Below are positions 6,690 through 30,846 of a DNA stretch of 64,000 bases, in pieces. Positions within the stretch are counted from its first letter, which is position 1. Each line of letters begins with the position of its first letter. A model generated the notes under the pieces. It was not told where the DNA came from, ran no database searches, and was given only the letters and a program-made list of their open reading frames with translations. The position numbers were made by a program, and so were the translations under genes. This stretch comes from a bacterium (GTDB lineage Bacteria > Myxococcota_A > UBA9160 > UBA4427): contig JANSYR010000013.1 in assembly GCA_024742285.1 (NCBI GenBank), forward strand, positions 124,001 through 188,000, read 5' to 3'.

Positions 6690-6743
6690 CCGTGGATCCG
6701 GCGCCGCGATTCCACCGCGGACGCGCGCCGAGACGAACGCGGC

Positions 6744-7913
6744 TCAGCCGCTCAGCACGCGCGTGGTGACCCCGACGACCCGCTCGATCGACTCGACCGG
6801 GAGTTCGGGATAGAGCGGTAGTGCGAGGACTTCGTTCGCGGCGCGTTCGGTCTCGACGAGCGGCGACGTGGGGGCGAATTCCGCGAGCGCCGGCTGCTCG
6901 TGGAGCCCGCGCGCGTAGTAGACCTCGGTCGCGATCCCTTCCTCGGCGAGGGCGGCGACGAGCTCGGCCCGGCGGGCTGCCTCCACGCGAATCACGTAGC
7001 GATGGTAGGTGTGGCGGCCGGGCTCGAGGAGCGGCGCGGGGGTCTGGAGGGGAAGGGGGCCTTCGCCCATCGGCACGCTCGCCGGGGTCGCGCCCCGCTC
7101 GGCGAAGAGGGCGTCGTAGTGGAGGGCGCGCTGTCTCCGCGCGCGGGTCCAGCGTACGAGGTGGCGCAGCTTGATCGACAGGGCGACCGCCTGGAGTGCG
7201 TCCATGCGCGAATTGAGACCGAGCGAGGTGTAGACCCCGGGCTCGGTCTCCCCGTGGACCCGGAGCGACGCGACCCGCCCGGCGAGCGAAGCATCGTTCG
7301 TCACGAGCGCGCCTGCGTCACCTAGGGCGCCGAGGTTCTTCGTCGGATAGAAGCTGAAGCAGGCGAGGCTCGCGCGCGCACCCACCGGGCGCCCGTCGGG
7401 GTCCACGGCGCCGATCGACTGGGCGGCATCTTCGATGATCGGCACGTCGTGCTGGAGGCACCAGTCCTCTAGCGGGCCCAGGTGGGCGATCCGACCGAAG
7501 AGATCGACGGTCAGCACCGCCCGTACGTTCGGCAACGCTTCGGCACGTCGGATCGCATCCTCGGGATCGAGGTTCAGCGTGACGGGGTCGATGTCCGTGA
7601 AGACGGGCGTGGCGCCCGCGCGAACCACCGCGGCCGCCGTCGCGAAGAACGAGAAGGCGGGACAGAGCACGGCGTCGCCCGGGCCGATCCCGAGCGCCTT
7701 CATGGCCAGCCAGAGCGCGTCGGTCCCTGAGTTGCAGGAGAGGGCGTGGCGGATCTCGCAGAGCTTCGCGAGCTCGGTCTCGAAGGCCGTGACCGGCTCG
7801 CCCAGGATGAAGCGCCCCGAGGCCATCACCTCGGCGAAGCCCTGCAGCAGCTCCTCCTCGATCTCCGCGTGCTGAGCGGCGAGGTCGATCATCGGGATGG
7901 CGGTTCGCATCAC
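6744..7913 (-). CDS. DegT/DnrJ/EryC1/StrS sugar aminotransferase
   Basis: 389 aa, PLP-dependent aminotransferase acting on NDP-4-keto or NDP-3-keto sugars. The sequence shows the family landmarks: MIDLAAQ at the N-terminus, SNSGTDAL-like (CNSGTDAL), EDAAQSIGA with the PLP-contacting aspartate, the lysine-bearing FSFYPTKNLGALGD, and the N-S-R-M-D-A-LQA segment. The start codon overlaps the stop of the GT4 gene upstream (4 nt), so the two are translationally coupled. The product is probably an amino sugar for the glycan whose synthesis starts with the neighbouring sugar phosphotransferase. Confidence 0.9.
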   Translation of the reverse strand: MMRTAIPMIDLAAQHAEIEEELLQGFAEVMASGRFILGEPVTAFETELAKLCEIRHALSCNSGTDALWLAMKALGIGPGDAVLCPAFSFFATAAAVVRAGATPVFTDIDPVTLNLDPEDAIRRAEALPNVRAVLTVDLFGRIAHLGPLEDWCLQHDVPIIEDAAQSIGAVDPDGRPVGARASLACFSFYPTKNLGALGDAGALVTNDASLAGRVASLRVHGETEPGVYTSLGLNSRMDALQAVALSIKLRHLVRWTRARRQRALHYDALFAERGATPASVPMGEGPLPLQTPAPLLEPGRHTYHRYVIRVEAARRAELVAALAEEGIATEVYYARGLHEQPALAEFAPTSPLVETERAANEVLALPLYPELPVESIERVVGVTTRVLSG

Positions 7914-9196: not shown

Positions 9197-11653
9197 TCAA
9201 GCGGAGGTGGGTGTCTCGCTCTCGGGCATTCCACCCAGGGTGAGCGCCAGGGCTTCGTCGATCGTGTCCACCAGATGGATGCCGAGCGTGTCGCGGACTT
9301 CTTCCGGCACCTCTTCGAGATCCTTCGCGTTTCGCTTCGGAATGACGACCGTGTCGATCCCCGCGCGACTCGCGGCGAGCAGCTTGCCCTTGATCCCGCC
9401 CACCGGCAGGACCCGACCGCGCAACGAGATCTCTCCGGTCATCGCGACGTTGCTCTTCGCACTCCGGTTCGAGAGCAGCGAGACGAGCGCCGTCACGAGG
9501 GCGACCCCCGCCGACGGTCCGTCCTTCGGGGTTGCGCCGGCGGGCACGTGCAGGTGGATCTCGCCGGGGGCGAGGGCGTCCTCGCCCAGCCCCAGCTCCT
9601 CCGCGTGAGCGCGGACCCAGGACAGCGCCGCCTCCGCGGACTCGCGCATCACGTCGCCGAGCTGGCCGGTGAGGCGGAGGCGGATGCCCTTGCCGCCGCG
9701 ATTGCCGGCGGCCTCGACGAAGAGGATGTCGCCGCCGTGGGCGGTCACGGCCAGGCCGACCGCCACGCCCGGGATGGACGTTTCTTCCGCGGTCTCCGGC
9801 AGATGGGGCGGGGCGCCGAGGGCCTCGCCGACGAAGTCTGCGTCGACCCGGATCACCGCGTCGCGGTCCTCCGAGACCTTGCGCGCGCACTTCCGCATGA
9901 GCGTGGCGATGTTCCGTTCGAGGTTCCGCACGCCGGCCTCGCGGGTGTACTCGACGACGACCTTGTCGATCGCCGCCTCCTCGAACACCACCTGTTCCGC
10001 TTCGAGGCCATGCGCTTCGAGCTGGCGGGGCACGAGGAACTCCTCGGCGATCACGCGCTTCTCGTTCTCGGTGTATCCCGAGAGCTCGATGACCTCCATC
10101 CGGTCGAGGAGGGCCGGAGGGATCGTCGACAGGGTGTTCGCCGTCGCGATGAAGAGGACCCGGGAGAGGTCGAAGGAGGCTTCGATGTAGTGATCCGCGA
10201 AGGCGTGGTTCTGCTCGGGATCGAGCACCTCGAGCAGCGCCGACGACGGGTCGCCCCGGAAATCGGAACCGACCTTGTCGATCTCGTCGAGCAGGAAGAC
10301 CGGGTTCTTCGAACCCGCGCGCTTCAGGCTCTGCAGGATCCGACCCGGCATCGAGCCCACGTAGGTCCGGCGATGGCCGCGGATCTCGGCTTCGTCGCGC
10401 ACGCCGCCGAGACTCGCTCGGGTGAAGTTGCGGCCCATGCAGCGCGCGATCGACTTGCCGAGACTCGTCTTGCCGACCCCGGGCGGACCCACGAAGCACA
10501 GGATCGGCGCCTTGGCGTCCGGAGCGAGCTTGCGGACCGAGAGGAACTCGAGGATGCGGTCCTTGACCTGGCCGAGGCCGTGGTGATCGGCGTCGAGGAT
10601 CTCGCGGGCCTGGTGGAGGTCGAGATCGTCGTCGGTCTCGATGTTCCAGGGAAGATCGGTCATCCAGTCGAGATAGGTGCGGATGAGATGACGGTCGGGC
10701 GCGTGCTGAGGGAGCGACGACAAGCGACGCAGCTCCCGGTCCGCGAGGATCTCCGCCTCTTCGGGCAGCTCGAGGGCGTCGAGCTTCTCGCGCAGCTCGT
10801 CGATCTCTCTCGCGCCGGCGTCGGTCTCGCCGATCTCCTTCTGGATCTCGCGCATCCGCTGGCGGAGCATCTTTTCGCGTCGCTTCGGGTCCGTCTCGCC
10901 GCCCGCCTCGTCTGCGAGGCTGCGCTGGGTCTCGGCGATCGTCACCTCCTTTTCGAGGTGTTCTTCGACCAGGGCCAGGCGGGCCTCCGGGTCGGGCTCG
11001 GCGAGGATGTCGATCTTCTGTTCGGCCGTGAGCGCGATGTTCGAGGCGACGAGGTCGGCCAGGATGCCCGGCGTGGGGATCCCCTGGATGAAGGCCTTCC
11101 ACTCGTCCGGCATGTCCTCGCGGAGCTCGACGATCCGCTGGGCGAGCATCACGACGCGCCGCCAGGCCGCTTCGAGCTGGGGCGAGGCTTCCTCGGACTC
11201 GACCAGGGGCTGGACCTGGACGCGAAGGGTGGGCCGTACATCGACGGTCCGACTCACGACGGCGCGAGCGAGTCCGACGACGAGGGCCTGCTTGCCTTCG
11301 CGTCGGGCGTCGATGATCCGCATGACGCGAACGATCGTCCCCACCTCGTAGAGGTCGTCGAGGCCGGGGTCTTCGGTCATTGGGTCGCGCTGGGACAGGA
11401 CGAGCAGGAACCCGTCCTGGCCGGCCTCCTCGAGGGCCGCGAGGGAGCGCTCGCGACCGATCGCGAGCGGCATCGTCACGCCGGGGTAGACCACGACGTC
11501 CCGCACGGGCAGGACCGGCAGCACGGCGGGGACCTCGACGATCTCCGATCCCGGCAGCTCGACCACGAGCTGGGCCACGTCGGAGGCGGATCCGCTCTCG
11601 GCCCAGGTGCCGGTCTCTTCGTTCTCGTCGTTGGAGCGGTCGTCGTCGGCCAC
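9197..11653 (-). CDS. lon: ATP-dependent Lon protease
   Basis: 818 aa, full-length LonA. The N-terminal LAN substrate-binding domain begins with [18 protein letters not shown]. It is followed by a coiled-coil region, an AAA+ module with Walker A GPPGVGKT and Walker [10 protein letters not shown], and a C-terminal protease domain with the catalytic serine in [10 protein letters not shown] (about S714) and the lysine in GGIKGK (about K755). It degrades misfolded and regulatory proteins in the cytoplasm. It is monocistronic: a strong sigma70-type promoter lies 63-90 nt upstream and 114 bp separate it from the next gene downstream. Confidence 0.97.
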
Positions 11654-11715
11654 GGATCTCCGATCAGGGGTGCGGGCCCGGCTCTACCGGCCGGGCGTGC
11701 AATTGGACGCCGCGC

Positions 11716-11743
11716 AACATAAGCATGCCCAGCGCCCGGTCAA
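11716..11743 (-). promoter_or_regulatory. Sigma70-type promoter of lon
   Basis: Read on the minus strand: -35 TTGACC, 16-bp spacer, -10 TATGTT. The expected start lies about 55 nt before the lon ATG. I see no clear sigma32-type heat-shock promoter. Confidence 0.6.
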
Positions 11744-11863
11744 CCGGCGGTGTCGAGCGCGTGGGGGATTCCTCAGAGCTCCACTCGAATCGCGGAATTC
11801 GATGTAATCCGCTGAACTGAAAAGGGAATTCTGGTCGAGAACAGGGCTCATTCCTTGGCCCGC

Positions 11864-11869
11864 TAGAAT
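11864..11869 (+). promoter_or_regulatory. Candidate -10 box (TAGAAT), leaderless aldo/keto reductase transcript
   Basis: TAGAAT (5 of 6 matches to TATAAT) ends 6 nt before the ATG at 11876, so transcription would begin at about the start codon. No Shine-Dalgarno sequence is visible. Confidence 0.45.
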
Positions 11870-11875
11870 CGGCGC

Positions 11876-12766
11876 ATGATTTCCACCCTGCCTTTCGGAT
11901 CGACCGGTTTTCACAGCACGCGGATCCTGTTCGGCGCGGCCGCCGTCGCCGGGATGAAGCCCGCCCGGGTCGAGCGGACCCTCGAGACCCTGGAGCGATT
12001 CGGCGTCAACCACATCGACACCGCGGCGCGCTACGGCGACTCGGAGCTCAACCTCGCCGGCTGGCTGCGCTCGAGGCGGGACGCGGTGTTCCTCGCGACC
12101 AAGACGGGGGACCGTGACGGTCCCGCGGCGCGGGCGAGTCTCGAGCGTTCCCTCGAGCGGATGGGCGTCGATCGGGTCGACTGCATCCAGCTGCACAACC
12201 TGACCGACGAAGCGGGGTGGCAGCAGGCGATGGGCAAGGGCGGGGCGCTCGAAGCGCTCATCCAGGCGCGGGACGAAGGGCTCTGCCGCTTCATCGGAGT
12301 GACCGGCCATGGCACCTTCGCCCCGGCGTTCCACCTCCGGAGCCTCGAGGAGTACGCGTTCGCCTCGGTGCTGGTGCCGTACAACTACTCGATGATGGCG
12401 CAGCCGGAATACGCCTCGGACTACGAAGCGCTCGAGCGCGTCTGCGCCGAGCGCGGGGTCGCGCTCCAGACGATCAAGTCCGTCGCGCGGCGGCGTTGGC
12501 GGGACGACGACGAATCGAAACGGTTCAGCTGGTACGAGCCGATCCGCGACATCGAGGCGCTCACCCGCGCCGTCCACTGGGTGCTCTCGCGCGAGGGCGT
12601 CTTCCTCAACACGTCGAGCGACGGCGGGATCCTCGAGGCCACCCTCGAGGCGGCGGTGTCCTTCGAAGGGAACGGCATCCAGCCGACGGATGCGATGATG
12701 CAGGCCGACGCGAGCGCGATGGCGATCGAGCCGCTCTTCGAGCGCGGCGTCAGCGACCAGATCTAG
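11876..12766 (+). CDS. Aldo/keto reductase
   Basis: 296 aa, NADPH-dependent oxidoreductase of the AKR superfamily (TIM barrel). The catalytic tetrad is readable: D and Y in DTAARYGDSE (residues ~47-56), K in ATKTGDR, and H in IQLHNL. FIGVTGHG corresponds to the IGVSNF strand. Its substrate cannot be inferred. The last five codons and the stop lie inside a 17-bp tandem repeat, so the C-terminal SDQI may be a recent addition. Convergent with the enoyl-CoA hydratase. Confidence 0.85.
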   Translation: MISTLPFGSTGFHSTRILFGAAAVAGMKPARVERTLETLERFGVNHIDTAARYGDSELNLAGWLRSRRDAVFLATKTGDRDGPAARASLERSLERMGVDRVDCIQLHNLTDEAGWQQAMGKGGALEALIQARDEGLCRFIGVTGHGTFAPAFHLRSLEEYAFASVLVPYNYSMMAQPEYASDYEALERVCAERGVALQTIKSVARRRWRDDDESKRFSWYEPIRDIEALTRAVHWVLSREGVFLNTSSDGGILEATLEAAVSFEGNGIQPTDAMMQADASAMAIEPLFERGVSDQI

Positions 12767-18234: not shown

Positions 18235-18366
18235 GCAGGAACTCCGGGTGGGCGGGAGGCCGGGCAGACCTCGAGCGGGCGGTAGCATGACCGCCACGCC
18301 GACGGCGGGCAAGCGCGCCCCCGCCGATGGCAGGGGCGACGCCCCTCGTGCATGCTTGGCCTCGCC

Positions 18367-18816
18367 ATGCGCCTCTCGCGACGTGCACGCTATGCCCTCT
18401 GCGGGATCTTCGACCTCGCCTACAACGGGGGTGGTCATCCCGTTCGCGTCAAGCAGATCGGCGCGCGCCAGGGCATCCCGCACCGCTTCCTCGAGCAGAT
18501 CTTCCAGGATCTGCGCCGCGCCGACCTGGTCTCGGGCAAGCGAGGTCCGGGCGGGGGCTACGTGCTCACACGCTCGCCCGAGGACATCTCCCTCCGTCAG
18601 GTCGTCGAGGCGGTGGAGGGGCCGGAGGCCTTCGCCGCGGAGGCGACGACGGAGGGCTGGGCGCCCTCGGAGCATCGGCCCGACTTCCTGTGGGTCGAGC
18701 TGGCCGAGCGGATGGCGGCGACCCTCGACGGGGTCGCGATCTCGGATCTGTGTCGGGAGGCGGCCTCGCGGTCTCTGGACCGCGAGCTGACGGCCGTGCT
18801 CGACTTCCAGATCTGA
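18367..18816 (+). CDS. Rrf2-family transcriptional regulator
   Basis: 149 aa. The N-terminal MRLSRRARYALCGIFDLA and the winged-helix PHRFLEQIFQDLRRADLVSGKRGPGGGY are the Rrf2/IscR signature. The three cysteines that bind the Fe-S cluster in IscR are absent (that region reads AAEATTEGWAPSEHRP), so it does not sense through an IscR-type cluster. CymR-like cysteine control is conceivable because a sulfate-activation gene lies downstream. ATG 18367 gives the conserved N-terminus; an ATG at 18352 is also in frame. Confidence 0.88.
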   Translation: MRLSRRARYALCGIFDLAYNGGGHPVRVKQIGARQGIPHRFLEQIFQDLRRADLVSGKRGPGGGYVLTRSPEDISLRQVVEAVEGPEAFAAEATTEGWAPSEHRPDFLWVELAERMAATLDGVAISDLCREAASRSLDRELTAVLDFQI

Positions 18817-18923
18817 TTCGGCGCGCCTGGCTGGGCGTGCCCCCAGGGCACCTGTCCATTAGACTCCTGTCGGTCGAACCCCCCGTTCGAGAGAGGCCCG
18901 GCGATCCGGGTGGGGACGAGAGC

Positions 18924-19433
18924 GTGTCCGATCGCGTCGACCTGAAGGCCGAGCTCGAGAGCCGGTCGATCCCGAACGACATCCTGCACGAGATCTGTCA
19001 GCACGCCCTCGACGTGGTGCCGGAGGAATGCTGCGGCCTTCTGCTCGGTGACGAAGAAGGCTGGGCACGAAGGGTCGTGCGCATCACGAACGTCATGACG
19101 AAGATGCACGTTTCCGATCCCGAGGCCTTTCCGCGCGATGCGCGTCATGCCTACTACATGTCCGAGGTCGAGTACCTGAAGGCGGTCCAGGAGGCCGAGG
19201 CACGGAGCGAGCGCGTGACGGCCGTCTACCACTCCCACGTCGGGCACGGCTGCTACCTGTCTCCCGACGACGTGGCTTTCGCGACCCATCCGCTCTTCCC
19301 GTTTCCCGAAGCTGCCCAGATCGTCGTCTCGCTGCTGGACGGGAAGGTCAAGGAGGCGGGGGTCTTCGAGCCGCGCACCACGGCGACGGGCGCGCCGGGC
19401 TTCGTCGGACGCTTCCTCGAGGCGGTGCCGTGA
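18924..19433 (+). CDS. M67 (JAB/MPN) family metallopeptidase
   Basis: 169 aa. The JAMM zinc site is complete: glutamate in [13 protein letters not shown] in VYHSHVGHG, and S-P-D-D eight residues later, matching H-x-H-x7-S-x-x-D. Bacterial M67 enzymes remove molecules from ubiquitin-like carriers; the best-known type (Mec+) releases cysteine from the sulfur carrier CysO. GTG at 18924 follows a GGGGACGAG purine stretch and gives the normal length. The stop overlaps the next gene's GTG by 4 nt (GTGA). Neighbouring ATP sulfurylase and Rrf2 genes suggest sulfur or cysteine metabolism. Confidence 0.85.
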
Positions 19434-20512: not shown

Positions 20513-20607
20513 CCGAGCCCCCGACCCCGCGCAGAACCGACAGACCCGAAGCAGACGCCCAGGCGCCCGGTGATTCTCCGGGTGGCCCAAGGAAGGATAT
20601 TCGAATC

Positions 20608-21864
20608 ATGAGCCAGAACGATCTCGTCCCGGTCCACGGCGGCCTCGAAGAGCCGGTGGATCGCCTCGTGCCCTTCAAGGACAAGGCCGCCTTCCTCTCG
20701 GAGGCCGAGGGCCTGCCCGCGATTCGGGTGACCGACGCCGACCTGGCCACCGTCTACCGGATCGCCGATGGCGCGCTCTCGCCGCTGACCGGTCCCATGA
20801 AGAAGGCCGCTTTCGATCTGGCCCTCGACGAGAAGGTCGTCGAGTCGAAGGGCGGGCGGTACGCCTGGACGATTCCGATCGCGCTGCCGCTGACCGATGC
20901 CGAAGCCGGCTCGCTCACCGCGGGCGGCGCCTGCGCGGTCAAGACCGAGGACGGCCAGGTCGTCGCGATCCTCTCCGACCTCGAGGTCTTCGACTGGGAC
21001 AAGGCGAAGTACCTGACGAGTGTCTACGGAACCGAGCGCGTCGACCATCCGGGCGGTCGGATCGTCGACAACGACGAGCGCACGAAGCTGATCGGCGGTG
21101 AGCTCCGCGCGCTGCCCCAGCGAGCGAACAAGGAGTACGGCGAGTTCATGCTCTCGCCGAAGATGTGCCGCGCGTTCATCGCGGACAAGAAGTGGGAGCG
21201 CGCCCTCGCGTTCCAGACGCGCAACCCGCTCCACCGCGCCCACGAGTACGCGCTGGTCTACGGCGTCGAGCAGCTGACCGCGGCGGGTCATTTCGCCGGG
21301 GCCGTGCTGAACCCGCTGATGGGCGAGCTCAAGGGCGACGATGTCCCGGCCTCGACCCGGATGCTCTGCTACCGCAAGCTGCACAGCGAGCGCCTGCTGG
21401 GCGAGGGCGACAAGGACGAGGCGATCTGGGAGAAGGCCGGCTACGACATCTCGGACGTGTTCGAGCTGATCGGTCTGGACATCAAGATGTTCTACGGCGG
21501 TCCCGCCGAGGCGATCATGCACGGCATCTACCGCCAGAACTACGGCTTCTCCGACATCGTGATCGGCCGCAAGCACGCCGACGCGCCCTTCGAGGACGGG
21601 GAGGCGATCTGGGGCGACTTCGACGCGCATGACATCTTCGATGCGCTTCCCGGTCAGCTGGCGATCCAGCCCTGCAAGGTTGGCTTCGCGGCGTTCTACG
21701 AGAGCCTGGGACGCGTCGACCTGACCGAGCGCCACCCGGACGAGAAGCCGTTCTCGATCTCGGGCACGAAGGTCCGTTCGATGCTGCAGGAGGGCGAGCG
21801 CCCGGATCCTCGGATCATGCGGCCGGAGACCTCGGACGTGCTGATCGAGGCGTACAGAAACTAG
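20608..21864 (+). CDS. sat: Sulfate adenylyltransferase (ATP sulfurylase, homodimeric type)
   Basis: 418 aa. Makes adenosine 5'-phosphosulfate from ATP and sulfate, or the reverse in sulfur oxidisers. The active-site motif [12 protein letters not shown] (around residues 201-212) matches Q-x-R-N-P-x-H-x-x-H-E. The second nucleotide motif includes [18 protein letters not shown], with [10 protein letters not shown] after it, and the C-terminal [12 protein letters not shown] is also typical. AAGGA lies 13 nt before the ATG. The gene ends in a hairpin terminator. Confidence 0.95.
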
Positions 21865-21884
21865 TCGGCGCTTGCGCGCCGCTC

Positions 21885-21907
21885 GACGCGTCCTTTCTGG
21901 ACGCGTC
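21885..21907 (+). terminator. Hairpin terminator after sat
   Basis: Perfect 9-bp stem GACGCGTCC / GGACGCGTC with a 5-nt TTTCT loop, 20 nt after the sat stop. Only a short TT follows, so termination may be weak or rely on structure. Confidence 0.55.
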
Positions 21908-22024
21908 TTGCGCTGAGGGCTCTGGTCGGGGTCGGCCCCACCGAAGCGCTCGAGGAATCGACGGGGATCGTCCGGGAGGGCGGTCCCCGTTTGCGTTTCG
22001 GTGTCGGATGGCGAGAATCGGGTC

Positions 22025-23137
22025 ATGCGCTTCCTCGGACTTCGACCGATCTTCATGGCGGCCGCGCTCGCGGCGGCGGCTTGTGCCGGGTCCGAAGGGC
22101 CCGTTCGACTCACGCATTCGAGCGAGACACCCTGGGTCGAGCTGCGCAGCGCCCGCGGCTATAACGGGTCGGCCGCGGTGAAGGCCATGCCGACCGAGGT
22201 CGAGCGGATCGACCGGGTGCTGCGCAACCGCGCCGTCTATCGGGAGCCGGGCTTCGGGTTCGGGCACCTGATGCTGGGGTCGGGCGCGCTCTATCCCTAT
22301 CACGCGCACGCGGCGCCCGAGGCCTACCACGTGCTGTCGGGCGTCGCCGAGTGGAGCGTGGACGGCGAGACGCGACGCGTCGGGCCCGGCACGACGATCT
22401 ATCACGCGCCCTACGCGGACCATCGCTGGGTGACGGTCTCCGAAGAGCCGCTGCGCGTGGTCTGGGCGCAGTGGGTCCCGGACGGGGATCGCAGCGGCCT
22501 GATCGCGGACGCGGTTCGCCGGCGCGGAGGATCGACGACCGGCAATTTCTTCGAGGGCGAGCGTCGTTCGGTGTCGCTCCTGCCGACGAAGCTCGCGGCG
22601 CCCGTCGCCGACGTCCCGCCGGGCACCGTGCTCGACGAGATGCGTCGCAAGCGCCTCGAGGCGCGGCACGTGGAGCCGTCCCGGCCGGCGGTCCGCATCT
22701 TCGTCGACAGCTTCGGGATCCCCTGGAACACCGAGCAGGACGGCGTGCGCTGGCGGGCGGTCTTCGGGACGCCGGACCTCGAGTGGGGACACGTCGAGAT
22801 CCGCGGTCCGGGGCAGCGTGAGCTTCCGGCCTCCTCCGCGCCGTGGCTGCTGCACGTGCTCTCGGGCGAGGCGCGGGTGCGGATCGCCGACGGAGGCGAT
22901 CTCCGCGTCTCGGCGGGCTCGTCCGTCGTCGTGCGTCCCGGCGAGCCGCTCGAAGTCGAGTTCGAGAGCGAGGACCGTGACGCCTGGGACCAGGTCCCGC
23001 CGCTGCGCGCGCTCTTCACCCGTTGGGCTCCGGATGGCGACATGAGCTACTGGGCGCGCGACTACTTCCTCGTCGAGCCGATGCCCGAGCCCCCCGCCGA
23101 GGCGACACTCCCGAAGGACGTGTCGTTCTTTCCCTAG
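22025..23137 (+). CDS. Bicupin lipoprotein with DMSP-lyase-like N-terminal cupin
   Basis: 370 aa. N-terminal signal ending in LAAAACAGS (lipobox-like). The first cupin (about residues 70-165) has YPYHAHAAPEAYHVLSGVAEW, then DGETRRVGPGTTIYHAPYADHRW and a W-x-Q-W segment. The H-x-H-x4-E...H metal set and layout resemble the DddL/DddQ/DddW dimethylsulfoniopropionate lyase cupin family. The second cupin (LHVLSGEARVRI...) has lost the histidines and is probably structural. Lyase activity is only a suggestion; a sugar- or nutrient-binding cupin is equally possible. ATG 22025 starts the signal peptide directly. Confidence 0.65.
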   Translation: MRFLGLRPIFMAAALAAAACAGSEGPVRLTHSSETPWVELRSARGYNGSAAVKAMPTEVERIDRVLRNRAVYREPGFGFGHLMLGSGALYPYHAHAAPEAYHVLSGVAEWSVDGETRRVGPGTTIYHAPYADHRWVTVSEEPLRVVWAQWVPDGDRSGLIADAVRRRGGSTTGNFFEGERRSVSLLPTKLAAPVADVPPGTVLDEMRRKRLEARHVEPSRPAVRIFVDSFGIPWNTEQDGVRWRAVFGTPDLEWGHVEIRGPGQRELPASSAPWLLHVLSGEARVRIADGGDLRVSAGSSVVVRPGEPLEVEFESEDRDAWDQVPPLRALFTRWAPDGDMSYWARDYFLVEPMPEPPAEATLPKDVSFFP

Positions 23138-23204: not shown

Positions 23205-23232
23205 TTGACACGCCCTGGTGTCGCTGTACTCT
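23205..23232 (+). promoter_or_regulatory. Sigma70-type promoter of the WS/DGAT operon
   Basis: Perfect -35 TTGACA, 16-bp spacer, -10 TACTCT. The expected start is near 23239, the first base of the palindromic operator. The 5' leader to the first start codon is about 225 nt. Confidence 0.7.
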
Positions 23233-23238
23233 GGGAAG

Positions 23239-23266
23239 GCGCTACTGATAGATCTATCAGTAGCGC
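23239..23266. promoter_or_regulatory. 28-bp perfect palindrome, probable TetR operator
   Basis: Half site GCGCTACTGATAGA followed by its exact reverse complement, with no spacer and no mismatch. It starts 6 bp after the -10 box, so a bound dimer would block initiation. The operon it precedes encodes a TetR regulator as its second gene, the natural candidate ligand. As RNA it could also form a 5' hairpin. Confidence 0.75.
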
Positions 23267-23463
23267 TGGGTGGTCCGATTCTCCCGACTCGGATCGCCTG
23301 CCTGCCTCGAGACGGTCGGTCGGCCGTCACCAACAGGTCTTCACGCCCATCGACCCGAAGCCGCGCTGCGGCAAGGCGGTGAGGTCCACGTGGACGGCCT
23401 TCGGATTGCGAGCGACGCCCGAGCGGGCGCGAGCGCGCGATCCGGTACCAGGGGAGACGCGCG

Positions 23464-24897
23464 ATGAGCGACGTGAAGACGAACGGGATCGAGTTCGACG
23501 AGTTCATGAGTGAAGCCGACACGGTCATGTGGGTCGGCGAGCGGGACCCGCGCCTGCGTTCGACGATGGTGAGCGTGTGGGTGCTCGATCGAATGCCTGC
23601 GATCGAGGACTTCGAAGCGATGCTCGCGGATTCGGTCGAACAGATTCCGCGCCTGCGTCAGCGCGTCGTTCGCGACGCCTACGAGATCGCGCCGCCGCGA
23701 TGGGAGTTCGATCCCAACTTCGACCCCGGCTTCCACTTCCGGAGGTCCCATCTCGGCGGGGAAGGCGAGCTCCGCGACCTGCTCGACCTCGCCGAGCCGA
23801 TCGCGATGCAGGCCTTCGACAAGGATCGTCCGCTCTGGGAGTTCTACCTCGTCGACGGGCTCAGCGGCGGCCGCGCCGGCGTGATCATGAAGCTCCACCA
23901 CGCCGTGTCGGACGGCGTCGGTCTCGTGAACATGACGAAGAGCATGATCGAGCGGACTCCGGACGAGGGCCGAAAGCGGCGGACCGGGCGACGCCTGGCC
24001 GACCTCGAGGTGCCCGAGCCGGCGACCCGGCGGGAGCTCGTTCGCGGGGCGATCAAGCACCGCGTGCGCCGGGCGACGGAGAACGCGGGGCGGGTGCTTC
24101 GCGGTGCAGCGGATCTGGCGGCGGATCTCGTGACGAAGCCGTCGGAGACGGTCGGTCGCGCGAGCGACATGGTCGGTTCGATCGGACGGCTGCTCGAGCC
24201 GATCACGGAGCCGAAGTCGCCGGTCATGCGCGATCGCGGCATGGCGCTCTCGCTCAGCGGCTTCACGGCCTCGCTCGCCGGCATGAAGAAGACCGGTCGC
24301 GCGATGGGCGGGTCGGTCAATGACGTCTTCGTGACGGCCGTGGCGGGTGGCCTCCGGCGCTATCACGAGCACTTCGGCGCGAGCGTCGACGAGCTCAACA
24401 TGATGATGCCGATCAACATGCGAGCGAAGGACGAGAGCGGTCGGAAGGCCGGCAATCAGTTCGTGCCGTCGCGCTTTCTCGTTCCCGTCGGGATCGAGGA
24501 TCCCCTCGACCGGATGGAAGCGATCCAGGACCGAATTCGGGAGCAGCGGGGCGAGTCGGCCCTCGGCTACGTCGAAGACATCATGACCGTGATGAACCAG
24601 CTCCCCGACGCCGTCATGCAGGGCGTGATGGAGGGGATGACGACCGCCGTCGATTTCGTGACGAGCAACGTTCCGGGCCCCCGGTCCGCGACCTACACCG
24701 CCGGCGCGAAGATCGAGCAGATGTTCCCCTTCGGCCCTCCCGCCGGTGCGGCCGTCAACATCACCCTGTTCAGCTACGACGGCACCTGCCACGTCGGCAT
24801 CAACGCCGACCGCGCGGCAGTCGAATCCCCCGAGCTCCTGCGCGAGTGCATCGAGAAGAGCATGGTGGAGCTGCTGTCGAACTACCACGAGGAGTAG
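23464..24897 (+). CDS. Wax ester synthase/diacylglycerol acyltransferase (WS/DGAT), first copy
   Basis: 477 aa, bifunctional acyltransferase making wax esters or triacylglycerol from acyl-CoA. The catalytic HHxxxDG motif reads HHAVSDG at about residue 144. Other family blocks: DRPLWEFYLVDGL before it, SVNDVFVTAVAGGLRRY, MMPINMR, and SNVPGPRSATYTAGAKIEQMFPFGP in the C-terminal half. Typical length. The first gene of a four-gene operon under the palindromic operator. It differs clearly from the second WS/DGAT, so the two may prefer different alcohol or diacylglycerol acceptors. Confidence 0.95.
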   Translation: MSDVKTNGIEFDEFMSEADTVMWVGERDPRLRSTMVSVWVLDRMPAIEDFEAMLADSVEQIPRLRQRVVRDAYEIAPPRWEFDPNFDPGFHFRRSHLGGEGELRDLLDLAEPIAMQAFDKDRPLWEFYLVDGLSGGRAGVIMKLHHAVSDGVGLVNMTKSMIERTPDEGRKRRTGRRLADLEVPEPATRRELVRGAIKHRVRRATENAGRVLRGAADLAADLVTKPSETVGRASDMVGSIGRLLEPITEPKSPVMRDRGMALSLSGFTASLAGMKKTGRAMGGSVNDVFVTAVAGGLRRYHEHFGASVDELNMMMPINMRAKDESGRKAGNQFVPSRFLVPVGIEDPLDRMEAIQDRIREQRGESALGYVEDIMTVMNQLPDAVMQGVMEGMTTAVDFVTSNVPGPRSATYTAGAKIEQMFPFGPPAGAAVNITLFSYDGTCHVGINADRAAVESPELLRECIEKSMVELLSNYHEE

Positions 24898-24902
24898 CCG
24901 CC

Positions 24903-25550
24903 TTGGCAGCGCGTCGTACGAAGAGGAAGAAGGCGGCGTCTCCGCGGACACGGATGTCGCCGGATCAGCGTCGCGCGCAGCTGCTGCGCTGCGCGCTCGA
25001 GGTGTTCGCGAACAAGGGCATCCGGCGCGCCGGCCACGCCGAGGTGGCGAAGCTGGCGGGCTGCGCCGTGTCGACCGTGTTCCTCTACTTCGACACGCGG
25101 GAGGCGCTCGTCGACGCCGTGCTCGACGAGGTCGAGACCTTCTACACCGACCTCGCCGGCCGCGCGCACGCGTCCGCGCGGCCCGCGACGGAGGTCCTGC
25201 TCGATCACGGGCGCCGCTTCCGCGCCTCGATCGAGTCGCATCCCGAGCACGCGCTCGTCCTGCTGAACTGGGCGGCGAATGCGCGCAGCCGGGTCTGGCC
25301 CCGCTACATCGCGCTGATCGAAGACATGGTGGAGAACCACCGCAAGACGATCGAGCGCGGGATCGCCGAGGGCGACCTCGACCCCGCCGTCGATGCCGAG
25401 TCCGCAGCGCGCATCATCATCGGGTACGCGCACATGACGATCCAATTGCGCCTCGCGGACTTCGAGCCGGAGCGCGCAGAGCAGATTTCCCAGAGGATGG
25501 TCTCCGCCGTCCTGTCTCCGCCCAACCCCCTGAAGGACGCCGCCGCCTGA
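24903..25550 (+). CDS. TetR-family regulator within the WS/DGAT operon
   Basis: 215 aa from TTG 24903, or 198 aa from ATG 24954. TTG is preferred because GAGGAG lies 9 nt before it, at the end of the preceding gene; it adds a basic tail (ARRTKRKK). The N-terminal HTH reads RRAQLLRCALEVFANKGIRRAGHAEVAKLAGCAVSTVFLYFDTREALVDAV, here given as a region, typical of TetR. The ligand domain is unassigned; acyl-CoA would suit the context. Likely represses its own operon through the palindrome at 23239-23266. Confidence 0.88.
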   Translation: MAARRTKRKKAASPRTRMSPDQRRAQLLRCALEVFANKGIRRAGHAEVAKLAGCAVSTVFLYFDTREALVDAVLDEVETFYTDLAGRAHASARPATEVLLDHGRRFRASIESHPEHALVLLNWAANARSRVWPRYIALIEDMVENHRKTIERGIAEGDLDPAVDAESAARIIIGYAHMTIQLRLADFEPERAEQISQRMVSAVLSPPNPLKDAAA

Positions 25551-25577
25551 CGCGCGTCGTCGAGGAGTCCGCCATCC

Positions 25578-27053
25578 ATGGATCAGCTCACGGGTCTCGA
25601 CAACAGCTTCCTGCTGATGGAGACCGGCGCGGCCCTCGGCCATGTCGGCTCCTACGCGACGTTCGATGCGTCCGATCTCGCCCAGGGCGAGTTCTACGCC
25701 GCGTTCCGCAAGACGCTCGAGGAGCGCCTCCACCTGCTCCCCCCGTATCGCCGCAAGCTCGCGGAGGTCCCGCTCGGGCTCGATCGGCCCTACTGGGTGG
25801 AGGACGAGGACTTCGACCTCGACTTCCACGTCCGACACATCGCCGTCCCGGCGCCGGGTGATCGCGAGCAGCAGGCGGCGCTCGTGGCGCGCCTCCACAG
25901 TCGTCCCCTCGACCGCGCCCGACCGCTCTGGGAGGTCTACGTGATCGAAGGGCTCGCCGACGGCCGGGTGGGGTTCTACTCGAAGGTCCACCACGCCACC
26001 ATCGATGGGGTCTCGGGTTCGCAGATGATGGAGAAGCTCCTCGACCGCGATCCGAACGGGGATGTCGTCGAGCCGCCGAAGACGCCCTGGGTGGCGGATG
26101 CGACCCCGAGCCAGGGAGAGATGCTCATGCGGGGCGCCGCCGGCGCCGCGACCCATCCGGGCCGCATGGCGCGGACCCTCTACCGGACGGCCCGCGGCGT
26201 GTGGGAGAGCAACGAGCTGCTCGCCTCCGCGGCGCAAGGGCTCGGCCTCGATCGGCTACCGCTGACCCGGTCGATTCTCAAGCGGCGTGGGGCCGAGATC
26301 GACGCCGATCGGATCCCGCAGGCGCCGGCACCGCGGGCCCCCTGGAACCTCTCGATCACGCCGCACCGACGCGTGGCCTGCTTCTCGCAGCCCCTCGCCG
26401 ACTACAAGCACGTGAAGAAGGCCTTCGGGACGACGCTGAACGACGTCGTCATGGCCGTGACCGGCGGCGCCCTGCGGCGCTACCTCGAGTCGCACAGCTC
26501 GCTCCCGGAGGATCCGTTGAAGGCGATGGTGCCGGTCTCGGTGCGCAGCGAGTCGGAGGCCGAGGTCTACTCGAACCGGGTGGCCAGCGTGATCTCCGAG
26601 CTCGCGACCGACGAGAAGGACCCGGTCGAACGGCTGATGCGGATTCATCGCGCGATGCAGGCGGCGAAGCGCATGCACGCGGCGACGCCGGCGACGTTGC
26701 TCCAGGACTGGACGGAGTTCGCGATGCCTGCGCTCCTCGGGCAGGCCCAGCGGATCGCCGCTCGGACCAAGATCCTGGATCGGCTGAACCCGCCCTTCAA
26801 CGTGATCATCTCGAACGTGCCCGGGCCGCGAGAGCCGCTCTATCTGGCAGGCGCCGAGATGAAGGACTACTTCCCGGTCTCCGCGATCACCGACGGTCAG
26901 GGTCTCAACGTCACGGTGATCAGCTACCTCGATCATCTCGACTTCGGGCTGATCGCCTGTCGCGAGCTCGTCCCCGATCTCCACGACCTGGAGTCGGACT
27001 TCGACGAGTCTCTCGCCGAGCTCGTGCGACTCGCGGGCGAGGCCCGGAACTGA
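25578..27053 (+). CDS. Wax ester synthase/diacylglycerol acyltransferase (WS/DGAT), second copy
   Basis: 491 aa. The N-terminal LTGLDNSFLLMET matches the usual WS/DGAT start better than the first copy. The catalytic motif is HHATIDG at about residue 138. Further blocks: DRARPLWEVYVIEGL, TLNDVVMAVTGGALRRYL, MVPVSVR, ISNVPGPREPLYLAGA. GAGGAG about 15 nt before the ATG acts as ribosome site. It lies 27 bp after the TetR gene and before the lysine-rich gene. Product: storage wax ester or triacylglycerol at the membrane and lipid-droplet surface. Confidence 0.95.
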   Translation: MDQLTGLDNSFLLMETGAALGHVGSYATFDASDLAQGEFYAAFRKTLEERLHLLPPYRRKLAEVPLGLDRPYWVEDEDFDLDFHVRHIAVPAPGDREQQAALVARLHSRPLDRARPLWEVYVIEGLADGRVGFYSKVHHATIDGVSGSQMMEKLLDRDPNGDVVEPPKTPWVADATPSQGEMLMRGAAGAATHPGRMARTLYRTARGVWESNELLASAAQGLGLDRLPLTRSILKRRGAEIDADRIPQAPAPRAPWNLSITPHRRVACFSQPLADYKHVKKAFGTTLNDVVMAVTGGALRRYLESHSSLPEDPLKAMVPVSVRSESEAEVYSNRVASVISELATDEKDPVERLMRIHRAMQAAKRMHAATPATLLQDWTEFAMPALLGQAQRIAARTKILDRLNPPFNVIISNVPGPREPLYLAGAEMKDYFPVSAITDGQGLNVTVISYLDHLDFGLIACRELVPDLHDLESDFDESLAELVRLAGEARN

Positions 27054-27090
27054 CATCTTCTCGACAACGCCAACTGGAGAGGAACCCACC

Positions 27091-27471
27091 ATGGCCGTAC
27101 GCAAGAAGGCCGCCCGCAAGGCGGCGAAGAAGAAGACCACCCGACGTTCGCGCATCGGCGCCGACGCGATCGACGACGCCCTCTCCGGCCTCGAAAAGGA
27201 GATTCCGCGCTTGATCCGGAGGCTCCGGAAGAATCTCCGGGACCTCGAGAAGCAGGCGGACCGCGCGCGCAAGGACGGCGAGAAGCGCTGGCGCGACGCC
27301 GAGAAGCAGTTCCGATCGGATGCCGACGAGCTCCGGAAGCGGATCGAGGAGCTCGTGGGCGTCTCGAGTGGTACGAAGCGCAAGGGGGCCGCGAAGAAGA
27401 AGAGCGCCAAGCGGAAGGCAGCGAAGAAGTCGACGCGGAAGGCGCCGAAGAAGCGCGCGTCCGGCCGCTAG
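27091..27471 (+). CDS. Small lysine/alanine-rich protein with histone-H1-like tails
   Basis: 126 aa in three parts. Residues 1-22 and about 92-126 are Lys/Ala/Arg-rich (AKKKTTRR, AAKKKSAKRKAAKK), like histone H1 and bacterial HctB/AlgP-type DNA-binding tails. Residues 25-90 are a charged amphipathic helix or coiled coil (LEKEIPRLIRRLRKNLRDLEKQ, quoted here as two halves: LEKEIPRLIRR and LRKNLRDLEKQ) with a phasin-like character. GGAGAGGAA precedes the ATG. As the last gene of a WS/DGAT operon it may coat lipid inclusions or tie them to DNA, comparable to MLDS of Rhodococcus. That is inference; a general nucleoid protein is the alternative. Confidence 0.75.
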   Translation: MAVRKKAARKAAKKKTTRRSRIGADAIDDALSGLEKEIPRLIRRLRKNLRDLEKQADRARKDGEKRWRDAEKQFRSDADELRKRIEELVGVSSGTKRKGAAKKKSAKRKAAKKSTRKAPKKRASGR

Positions 27472-27490: not shown

Positions 27491-29791
27491 CTAGACCATC
27501 CGGATCCGGGGCTCGCGGGCGTGGGCGAGGAGCGCGTCTCGCTCGTCGCCATCGGCCGGGTGGACGCCGTACCCGAACGCGAGGCCGATGCGGACCGGCT
27601 GGTTCAGGTTCTCGTCCTTCGACACGACGTCGGCCACCGCGCGAGCGAGCTCGAAGACGCGCTCGCCGGGGGTGCGCCCCGGTTCCGGCATCAGGACCGC
27701 GAACTCGTCGCGATCGATTCGAGCCAGCACGTCGAACTCGCGCAGGTGGGTCTGGAGCGCTTCGGCGAGCAGGCGGGCCACGTCGGACGCGTGGTCCGCG
27801 CCGGCCTCCGCGGTCAGCTCTGCCCGGTTCTCGAGCTTGCAGACGCAGAGGGCGAGGGCGTCCTCACGACCCGCCGCGCGCGCGATCTCCTCGCCGAGGC
27901 GCTTGTCGAGGTAGGAGACGTTCGGGAGCCCCGTCTCGTCGTCGAAGTTCCGGTTCTGTCGGTTCTCGCGGTGGCTCATCGCGTGGTCGAGCGCGCGCTC
28001 GACGTAGGACACGAAGCGACCGAAGACCTGCAGATCCTCGTCGTCGAAGCGGCTCGCGAAGAAGCGGTCGAGGGCGACCTTGTCGTAGATGGCGATCGAG
28101 CCGATGACCTCGCCGTTGCGCTTGAGGGGCGCCGAGAGGACGGAGCGCATCTCGTCCACGTGCTCCGAGAGGTTCGGGTCGAGGCTCGCGTCCTGGGTCA
28201 GATGAGCCGTCCGGCGGCGGATGGCGTCGACGGTGACGGCCTTGTCGAGGCGAAAGAGCGCCTCCTGCGCCGGTCCGTCGGCGGCTCCGAAGTACGAGCG
28301 GATCGAATAGCGTCGGGTCGTGGGGTCCTGAAGGCGCAGGATCGCGTGATCGGCCTCGAGGATCATCGACGCCGACGAGGTGGCGAGCCTCGCGACTTCG
28401 TTGGGCTCGGTGCACGAGAGCATGCGGATCGAGGTCTCGTTGATCGCGTTCACGCGCTCGGCCTGGCTGGCCATGCGCGCTTCCTTGTCGCTGGCCGCGA
28501 TCGTGTCGGCGGCTGCGGCGGCGATCTCCTGCCAGCTCTCGAGGTTCCGGTGGCTCGGGCTGCTGCCGGCTCCCGAGGCGGCGGGCTTCGCGCCCATCTG
28601 CAGGGAGAGCAGACCGACGAGGTGGTTCCCGGCGAGGAGGGGCAGGGCGGCGTAGCCGATCCGCCCGTCTTCGTGCCGGAGAACGGCGGCGCGCTGGTTG
28701 CGGAGGGCTTCGCCGTCGACGCCGATGCCCGCCTCGAGGCGGTACTCGCCGCCGAAGCCGCCTCCGGTGAGCGAGGTGGCGACCATGCGGAGTCCGCCGT
28801 CGGCCTCGCGGAGGTAGAGATGGGCGATCCCGCCCGCGGCGCGCTCTGCGACGAAGCGGCAGAACTCCTCGAGACGGTCGTTCAGGATCGCGGGGCCGCG
28901 CAGGATGCGCTGGACCTCGCGGACCGCGTCGTAGCGCGCGGCCTGGGTCCGCAGGCTCTCGTGCTCCTGGGCGCGGGCGATGATCTGCGCGTCGAGGCTC
29001 GCGAGCTGCTCCATGAACTGGAGATCTTCGTCGCCGAAGACGTCGGCACGATGGGAGTGGTGGACGTTGAGGACGCCGAGGACCTTCCCGTGGTGGATCA
29101 GCGGGACGCAGAGCGCGGACTCGACGTCGACGCGCTCGCGCACGAGGTCGTAGCTCGAGGGCTCCGCCTGGCCGCGGATGTGGATGGGCCGCCCTTCGGC
29201 GGCGACGCGACCCGAGATGCCCTGACCGAGCGCGACGCGGATCTTGGGCCAGAGCTCGGGCTCGACACCCTTGGCGACGCGGATGCGGAGCACCCCGGCT
29301 TCGGGATCGAGCAGCATCAGACTGCCGCCTTCCGCCCCGGTCACGCCGACGGCGATTTCGAGCATCCGCTCGAAGAGCTCGTCGGCTTCGACGGTCAGGT
29401 CGACGCTCTCGACCACTTCGTGGAGGGCCTGGAGCAGCTCCGCCTTGCGGTCGCGCGGCGCGACGCCGTAGCCCCAGAGGAGACGGGCGGTGAGCGGCGT
29501 GACCACCTGGAGGGCGGTACGCGGGCCGGCGGGGACGTGCGCTGCGAAGTCTCCGCTCGAATCGATGATCGCGTCGAAGTCCTGCTCGGCGAAGAACGCC
29601 GTGGCGTCGTCGACGAGGAGCGGAGCCACCGCGTGGGCGAGGGCGGTCCCGATCCCGCGCGCGCGCTCGAGGGCGTCGGCCGCGTTCGGATCGTAGATCC
29701 GCGAGACCTCGACTCCGGGATTGCCCGACAGGAGGCGCAGGAGTCGCAGGGACTCCTCGCTGGCGCCCCAGATGCCGAGCCGGCGCCGCAT
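27491..29791 (-). CDS. Multi-GAF sensor with Rossmann-like N-terminus and degenerate GGDEF-like C-terminus
   Basis: 766 aa. Residues 1-110 resemble a nucleotide-binding Rossmann fold (LGIWGASEESLRLLRLL, IIDSSGDFA). Two or three GAF domains follow, the first with GGSLMLLDPEAGVLRIRVAKG and LGQGISGRVAAEGRPIHI. The C-terminus has the GGDEF-domain order (DDETGLPNVSYLDKRL ... LARIDRDEFAVL), but the two glycines of GGDEF are D-R, so cyclase activity is doubtful. The ATG shares one base with the stop of the GTPase gene (TGATG). A cytoplasmic small-molecule or redox sensor acting with the GTPase is plausible. Confidence 0.75.
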   Translation of the reverse strand: MRRRLGIWGASEESLRLLRLLSGNPGVEVSRIYDPNAADALERARGIGTALAHAVAPLLVDDATAFFAEQDFDAIIDSSGDFAAHVPAGPRTALQVVTPLTARLLWGYGVAPRDRKAELLQALHEVVESVDLTVEADELFERMLEIAVGVTGAEGGSLMLLDPEAGVLRIRVAKGVEPELWPKIRVALGQGISGRVAAEGRPIHIRGQAEPSSYDLVRERVDVESALCVPLIHHGKVLGVLNVHHSHRADVFGDEDLQFMEQLASLDAQIIARAQEHESLRTQAARYDAVREVQRILRGPAILNDRLEEFCRFVAERAAGGIAHLYLREADGGLRMVATSLTGGGFGGEYRLEAGIGVDGEALRNQRAAVLRHEDGRIGYAALPLLAGNHLVGLLSLQMGAKPAASGAGSSPSHRNLESWQEIAAAAADTIAASDKEARMASQAERVNAINETSIRMLSCTEPNEVARLATSSASMILEADHAILRLQDPTTRRYSIRSYFGAADGPAQEALFRLDKAVTVDAIRRRTAHLTQDASLDPNLSEHVDEMRSVLSAPLKRNGEVIGSIAIYDKVALDRFFASRFDDEDLQVFGRFVSYVERALDHAMSHRENRQNRNFDDETGLPNVSYLDKRLGEEIARAAGREDALALCVCKLENRAELTAEAGADHASDVARLLAEALQTHLREFDVLARIDRDEFAVLMPEPGRTPGERVFELARAVADVVSKDENLNQPVRIGLAFGYGVHPADGDERDALLAHAREPRIRMV

Positions 29792-30846
29792 CAGTCGGTG
29801 CCGTCCTGGCTCGCCAGCGCGTCGAGTCGCAACGAGAGAACGACGCTTCGCGAAGTCCCGTCCTCGTCGCCGAGCACGAGCGGCAGGCGAACGCCGCCGT
29901 CGGCCTCGACCGTGGCCTGGCCGACCGACACGACGCGCAGAGCGCCTTCGGTGGGCTTGGAGGCCGACGCATCCTCGGCCCATTCGGCCTGCCCCCCGTC
30001 GAGGTCGAGCTCGACGGCGGCCAGCGTCTGGAAGTTCTGGTCCTCACCTTCCGCGAGGATCGCGCTCTCGAGCAGCTCGGCCGTCGAAGTCGCGTTCGGA
30101 TCGTCGTCGAGCGCCACGGCCTCGAGGGTGGGTTCGAGCTCGAGCGCTTCGACCTCGGAGGATTCGTCGATCGCGATCTCTTCGATCTGGGGCAGGGCCT
30201 CGGGCTCGGGGGGCGCGGCCGGCCTTTCCGGGGCCGCGGCGCCCTGCGCCGCCTCGGCCGCCACCTGCGGATCGATTTCGCCGCTGCTGCCGCGGCGCGC
30301 GCGCACGACATGCTTCGAGATGGTGGTCAGCGTCGGGAGGATGCCGTGGCCGGTCGTCGCGATGGTCTCGAAGACGGCGGCCTGATCGAGTCCGATCTGG
30401 CGATGGAGGTCTTCGATCGCGAAGGGATCGGCGACGTCGCGCTTGTTGTATTGGAGCACCAGGGGGAACGCGTCGAGTCGCCGGCCGTAGGCGGCGAGGG
30501 ACTTCTTCAGCTCCTCGAGGGCCGGGCCGTTCTCCCGGATCTTCTCGGGCGAACAGTCGAGGACGAGCACGATCCCGTCGACCTCGTCGAGGAGCTGCTT
30601 GCGGGTCATCGCCTGGTCCGGCGCGCCCGGGACGGCGACCAGCTCGATCTGGGTGCCGACGCCACCGACCTCGCCGAGGGTGATCGGCAAGGCTTCGTAT
30701 TGGACGGTGGGGTCGAGGCGGGTGGGCTCGCGCCGCAGCTCGCCGCGAAGGTCCTCGCGGAGCTTCGCGTGGATCGTCTCGAGGGTCGTCGTCTTGCCCG
30801 AACCTTCGATGCCCCAGAGCAGGATGCGTGCGTTGACTTCGGACAT
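29791..30846 (-). CDS. MglA/Arf-like small GTPase with long C-terminal extension
   Basis: 351 aa. The first ~190 residues form a Ras/MglA-type GTPase: P-loop GIEGSGKTT at 12-20, a switch II region VPGAPDQ in place of DxxG (MglA proteins have a similar divergent motif), and NKRD for guanine specificity. The rest is an acidic, proline/alanine-rich linker ending in a beta-rich segment (LPLVLGDEDGTSRSVVLSL). MglA-type GTPases set polarity or control motility. It lies 2 nt after the HEAT-like gene and overlaps the GAF gene, so the three form one operon. Confidence 0.82.
   Translation of the reverse strand: MSEVNARILLWGIEGSGKTTTLETIHAKLREDLRGELRREPTRLDPTVQYEALPITLGEVGGVGTQIELVAVPGAPDQAMTRKQLLDEVDGIVLVLDCSPEKIRENGPALEELKKSLAAYGRRLDAFPLVLQYNKRDVADPFAIEDLHRQIGLDQAAVFETIATTGHGILPTLTTISKHVVRARRGSSGEIDPQVAAEAAQGAAAPERPAAPPEPEALPQIEEIAIDESSEVEALELEPTLEAVALDDDPNATSTAELLESAILAEGEDQNFQTLAAVELDLDGGQAEWAEDASASKPTEGALRVVSVGQATVEADGGVRLPLVLGDEDGTSRSVVLSLRLDALASQDGTD

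Follow-up and report, generated by a model that had tools for sequence, protein, structure and literature searches.

The window, as we call the whole 64-kb stretch of DNA analyzed here, comes from an uncultured Myxococcota-type bacterium and carries four genes on the forward strand in the order WS/DGAT-1, TetR, WS/DGAT-2 and a Lys/Arg-rich gene, with gaps of 5, 27 and 37 bp (Table 1), and the ORF coordinates reproduce exactly the arrangement described in a first-pass annotation of this DNA. A simple scan found no terminator-like site within the array, even in its largest gap of 37 bp. The 5-bp gap between WS/DGAT-1 and TetR hinges on the TTG start of the latter, for which an alternative in-frame ATG exists at 24954; the basic N-terminal arm given by the TTG start is common to the relatives of the regulator.

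Table 1. Positions in the window of the four genes and of the sites preceding them.
Feature	Position	Strand	Basis
Putative promoter: TTGACA (23205-23210), 16 bp, TACTCT (23227-23232)	23205..23232	+	Read directly
28-bp perfect palindrome, predicted LuxR/HapR-type operator (22-bp core 23242-23263)	23239..23266	.	HapR matrix, conservation
WS/DGAT-1, of a clade regularly linked to a HapR-like TetR	23464..24897	+	TIGR02946, HHAVSDG, tree
TetR-family regulator, LuxR/HapR/SmcR type	24903 (TTG start)..25550	+	Sequence and fold matches
WS/DGAT-2, of a clade different from WS/DGAT-1	25578..27053	+	TIGR02946, HHATIDG, tree
Lys/Arg-rich protein, candidate for inclusion coating or DNA tethering	27091..27471	+	Function inferred

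Both acyltransferases scored above the cut-off of the wax ester/TAG synthase model TIGR02946 (332.5 bits for WS/DGAT-1 and 488.2 bits for WS/DGAT-2), matched WS/DGAT by Pfam as well, and contained the HHxxxDG and NVPGP motifs of these enzymes. They fell into separate clades in the tree, and the earlier reading of two distinct HHxxxDG acyltransferases stands. Unlike the known synthases, WS/DGAT-1 belongs to a divergent, long-branch clade (support 100/100). The description of the operon as self-contained does not hold at the level of the cell, whose genome contains nine WS/DGAT genes including the two of the array. As part of our best overall explanation, the array is probably a locally regulated neutral-lipid locus with wax ester or triacylglycerol as its predicted product.

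The TetR gene had been recognized correctly in the first-pass annotation, but the kind of regulator that it encodes and the type of its operator had been overlooked. Its top NCBIfam model was LuxR/HapR/OpaR (NF040929), at 86.9 bits against an equivalog cut-off of 350. The best 18 PDB sequence matches were all LuxR/HapR/OpaR/SmcR proteins (3e-24 to 1e-20), the next kind following at 1e-10, and the first 39 fold matches of the AlphaFold2 model (mean pLDDT 92) were LuxR/HapR/SmcR structures, DNA-bound LuxR among them. On the LuxR/HapR family model, the window protein reached about 86 bits, while the other TetR proteins of the genome reached at most 29 bits. In sequence and fold, the regulator thus resembles LuxR/HapR more closely than it does other TetR proteins, and is of the LuxR/HapR/SmcR type; at about 27-31% identity in structure alignments and below the equivalog cut-off, it is a distant relative of the Vibrionaceae proteins and not an orthologue.

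The palindrome GCGCTACTGATAGATCTATCAGTAGCGC upstream of WS/DGAT-1 is symmetric at 28 of 28 positions, as first noted. With up to three mismatches, its 22-bp core is expected 0.00 times per 64 kb, and its 20-bp core (IUPAC form, again with up to three mismatches) occurred once in the 6.5-Mb genome. A published box has the form TATTGATAAA-TTTATCAATA (PMC3323551). We scored the window with a matrix built solely from the 29 ChIP-seq sites printed for V. cholerae HapR (PMC10328515), which is independent of the sequences studied here; the palindrome ranked first in the 64 kb with 25.7 bits, the runner-up had 7.5 bits, and the maximum in 100 first-order Markov sequences was 15.7 bits. The core CTACTGATAGATCTATCAGTAG differs from the matrix consensus TTATTGATAAATTTATCAATAA by transitions only. 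Judged by its letters, the palindrome is a LuxR/HapR-type box and the predicted operator of the locus, the same operator type as in Vibrionaceae.

The strong promoter proposed earlier held in part: the TTGACA element is perfect, but the -10-like TACTCT agrees at only three of six positions and a promoter scan reported nothing. TTGACA or TTGACT was present at a similar position in the related loci L037 and L038. In relatives as in the window, the box overlies the promoter region. In the window, it directly follows the putative -10, and several relatives have a TTGACA inside their first box. As this is the placement of a repressor, autogenous repression is favored. LuxR/HapR proteins can, however, act as activators or repressors (PMC2628434), so the sign of the regulation is not fixed by the placement.

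Conservation was followed in 80 sampled genomes of the order, the window's own included. WS/DGAT-1 and TetR were linked in ten further genomes (G003, G005, G007, G008, G058, G059, G067, G069, G073, and G074), and the TetR proteins of these loci were 39-68% identical to that of the window. Another WS/DGAT gene lies between the two in G058, and in G073 WS/DGAT-1, TetR and another WS/DGAT are packed in the same order as in the window. The linked loci have one to three boxes directly upstream, often as tandem copies at 25-30 bp. Of the TetR-linked WS/DGAT-1 loci whose upstream sequence was available, 10 of 10 (counting that of the window) had a box scoring at least 22 bits, vs. 0 of the 19 unlinked WS/DGAT-1 homologues found in the order (best 9.9 bits), although the related loci in this comparison are not independent samples. 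Among the unlinked, box-free loci is a 66%-identical WS/DGAT-1 fragment in G046, where TetR had no match. The contrast also exists within one genome: in G003 the linked copy has the box, and the unlinked copy, which shares 54% identity with the WS/DGAT-1 of the window, lacks it. We therefore rejected the idea that every WS/DGAT-1 gene has a box, which is restricted to TetR-linked copies. These results support a strict co-occurrence of regulator, box and linked WS/DGAT-1; the palindromic operator that the first-pass annotation had placed before these genes was thus supported as an autogenous TetR operator, and its conservation in relatives, suggested there as a check, was found.

The link of the regulator to lipid genes is not universal: for four TetR relatives within the order, a box is present and a WS/DGAT neighbor is not. 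A single-sequence contig search with TetR gave no match, and a search with a 13-row TetR alignment gave 19 loci. The matching contigs are labeled as Myxococcota or Deltaproteobacteria metagenome assemblies, and more distant relatives were found in MAGs labeled Binatota and Gammaproteobacteria. Several of these distant relatives have a box before TetR and no WS/DGAT match in the flanks examined, which indicates a greater age or a wider spread for the regulator and box than for their link to lipid genes.

The closest solved relatives of this TetR are quorum regulators of Vibrio and Photobacterium, and LuxR can activate or repress (PMC2628434), so a quorum-sensing or growth-phase regulator, with lipid storage activated or repressed by cell density and not by a lipid ligand, has to be considered. 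The number of sites argues against it. The strict pattern YTANTGAY-N6-RTCANTAR was found exactly once in each of nine of the 80 genomes, and a reversed-control pattern in none of the 80; in seven of the nine the site is at this TetR locus, and in the other two it precedes TetR-family-like genes of other kinds. By the strict pattern and by the 20-bp core alike, the window genome has a single site and not a many-site global regulon, compared with 32 HapR peaks in V. cholerae (PMC10328515). The score of 86.9 bits is far below the HapR cut-off of 350, and an AHL synthase was sought and not found in a search that had no positive control. We consider control by cell density very improbable. As the strict box occurs at most once per genome, and lies upstream of the putative target genes of the TetR itself, the switch looks local, a private switch of the lipid locus instead of a global quorum regulator. 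In this and in the position of its gene inside the operon under its predicted control, the window TetR differs from Vibrionaceae LuxR/HapR. The apparent private switch of a lipid gene by a LuxR/HapR-type regulator and box is the point that the first reading of the sequence had missed.

The full four-gene order was found in none of the other 79 genomes, and TetR with WS/DGAT-1 and the Lys-rich gene with a WS/DGAT form two modules at separate loci in G003, G058, G059, and G067. The four-gene composition is therefore not supported as a conserved unit, nor as an ancestral set. With the HapR matrix, no box was detected at the Lys-rich loci adjoining WS/DGATs in relatives, and control of those genes by the operator as well was rejected. 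On the evidence of gene order, two modules that relatives keep apart have been joined in this lineage to give the array. The separate loci and the missing box would also fit a regulated unit consisting only of operator, WS/DGAT-1 and TetR, with WS/DGAT-2 and the Lys-rich gene lying downstream by chance as an independent module under a promoter of its own. This division is unlikely in the window, where the genes run in the same direction with gaps of 27 and 37 bp and where simple scans detected no terminator- or promoter-like site between the modules; the G073 locus, with another WS/DGAT packed behind TetR, also speaks for a single unit.

The Lys/Arg-rich protein has 126 aa and a net charge of +30, and is predicted to form a single long helix (residues 4-88) followed by a low-confidence basic tail. 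The amphipathicity of residues 27-59 was above that of all 500 shuffles, and the long amphipathic helix with a Lys-rich tail is the architecture of the phasin PhaF. The protein was earlier called histone-like, a label taken from composition, and it has no Pfam or NCBIfam match; searches of PDB, NCBIfam and Pfam with Lys-rich sequences returned nothing, or weak low-complexity and coiled-coil matches, and for this reason no family name is claimed. The phasin model PF05597 did not match the window protein and weakly matched two of 13 family members (best 0.00026), and weak HC2 matches were found in three of 13.

In a single-sequence search, the family was present in 21 of the 80 genomes, the last few weakly. 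In nine relatives, the gene directly adjoins a WS/DGAT gene (G001, G003, G004, G058, G059, G065, G066, G067, and G070), upstream or downstream of it and in some pairs with an overlap of 1-4 bp. The adjoining WS/DGATs belong to at least three clades of the tree, none of them the WS/DGAT-1 clade. The genomes with this adjacency have about 7-17 WS/DGAT genes each, which among roughly 5000 genes gives an estimated chance adjacency of about 1% or less per genome. The gene is not adjacent to a WS/DGAT in G006, G008, and G069, and no WS/DGAT is present on the readable side in G063 and G064; the contigs of G025, G029, and G060 are too short for the neighborhood to be read. A repeated neighborhood of Lys-rich and WS/DGAT genes is thus supported, and the association with WS/DGAT genes in relatives, the lack of which the first-pass annotation would have taken as a refutation, held for TetR and for the Lys-rich gene, each on its own. 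The Lys-rich composition, the weak HC2 matches and the three genes without a WS/DGAT neighbor are what a general nucleoid protein of the histone-H1/HC2 kind, with no role at lipid inclusions, would lead one to expect. We doubt this interpretation, because the gene adjoins WS/DGATs of at least three clades in nine genomes with about 7-17 such genes each, the helix is strongly amphipathic, and some family members have weak phasin matches. We regard the protein instead as a candidate for inclusion coating or DNA tethering.

Several features of the array recall the Pseudomonas mcl-PHA cluster (phaC1ZC2D and phaIF), which encodes the synthases PhaC1 and PhaC2, the TetR-like PhaD and the histone-like phasin PhaF (PMC9049629). 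Both have two storage synthases, a TetR-type gene and a protein with an amphipathic helix and a basic tail. In contrast to the pha cluster, the array has WS/DGATs instead of PHA synthases and no depolymerase. The two TetR proteins are of different subgroups, PhaD acts as an activator, phaIF forms an operon of its own, and the Lys-rich protein has no detectable homology to PF05597. In Rhodococcus jostii (PMC5504291), the lipid-storage protein MLDS has a Lys-rich DNA-binding tail and its operon-encoded autoregulator MLDSR binds a palindrome, features that are predicted for the Lys-rich protein and the TetR of the array. MLDSR differs as a predicted XRE-type HTH protein with another box, and the description of the mldsr-mlds operon considered here names no WS/DGAT; the exact MLDS-type PAKKA motif was absent from the translated window protein. 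The resemblance to both systems is a likeness in design, as the defining PF05597 and PAKKA features are absent. A word search of the open-access literature turned up no published example of a WS/DGAT operon controlled by a LuxR/HapR-type TetR.

Considering the above results, we propose a plausible model in which a TetR dimer would bind the palindrome immediately after the putative -10 and block transcription of WS/DGAT-1 and of tetR itself, and, by read-through on a single predicted transcript, of WS/DGAT-2 and the Lys-rich gene. Pathway logic suggests a hydrophobic or acyl effector, most likely acyl-CoA or a fatty acid, which would release TetR when lipid precursors accumulate, and both acyltransferases would then produce storage lipid. 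The Lys-rich protein may coat the inclusion by its amphipathic helix, and its basic tails may tie the inclusion to the nucleoid. The joining of the two modules would place inclusion synthesis and coating under one switch, as in Pseudomonas pha and partly in Rhodococcus MLDS/MLDSR. We consider this model, a TetR-repressed and effector-released lipid operon with a Lys-rich inclusion coat, more likely than not. Only tentatively do we extend it to a Gram-negative wax/TAG counterpart of Pseudomonas pha, with a dedicated, self-controlled LuxR/HapR-type lipid switch and a Lys-rich coat or tether.

Quorum sensing in Vibrio is the main setting in which regulators of the LuxR/HapR type and their operator are known. 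The present locus places such a pair in a distant phylum with a predicted role at a single operon, which bears on the origin of the Vibrio master regulators and on the first ligand of their pocket. Furthermore, inclusion coating and DNA tethering are so far known from PhaF on PHA granules and from MLDS on Rhodococcus droplets, and the Lys-rich family provides a testable candidate for either function in Gram-negative lipid accumulators.

LuxR/HapR-type boxes occur in tandem in many relatives, at a spacing of 25-30 bp (41 in the relative locus L039), and this arrangement suggests cooperative binding in those relatives. The window has a single box only, which is more symmetric than the tandem boxes. 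The closest orthologue of WS/DGAT-2 (77%) was found in genome G003 about 3 kb from a second HapR-like TetR (about 34% identical), and the boxes 5' of this TetR were weak (14-15 bits).

Coordinates of boxes and genes in the window and in relatives
Feature	Locus	Position	Strand	Remark
JAB/MPN-domain protein (Prok-JAB)	window	18327-19433	+	upstream of ATP-sulfurylase
ATP-sulfurylase, then two-cupin protein	window	20600-23137	+	PF01747, PF14306 (Pfam, ATP-sulfurylase)
Two-cupin protein	window	22001-23137	+	
Multi-GAF GGDEF protein, putative diguanylate cyclase	window	27491-29983	-	downstream of array and convergent with it
Two tandem boxes	L020	9170/9195		
Two tandem boxes	L022	9147/9177		
Two tandem boxes	L040	8799/8825		
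Two tandem boxes	L043	8557/8587		
Two tandem boxes	L042	6996/7026		
Two tandem boxes	L039	9123/9164		
Three tandem boxes	L044	5343/5373/5403		
Second HapR-like TetR	L024 (G003)	6659-7291		
WS/DGAT-2 orthologue	L024 (G003)	10439-11944		
Off-locus strict box	L146 (G022)	1501		
Off-locus strict box	L151 (G079)	1501		

Upstream of the window array, the two-cupin protein matched Pfam DMSP_lyase at 34.2 bits, above the cut-off of 27, and together with ATP-sulfurylase it is possibly involved in sulfur-compound metabolism. In each of L070 (G059) and L078 (G058), a WS/DGAT-2 orthologue (66-67%) is placed next to a WS/DGAT and Lys-rich pair, in divergent orientation, and the downstream half of the window array may have come from such an arrangement.

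TetR relatives in MAGs labelled Proteobacteria, Gammaproteobacteria and Binatota (L095, L096 and L097) have a strong upstream box of 25-30 bits, but no WS/DGAT match was obtained in the TetR flanks of these loci; the regulator and box thus occur without the lipid gene. Each of the two off-locus strict matches is situated where a TetR-family-like gene of another kind begins, a hint that other TetR subgroups use related boxes as self-operators.
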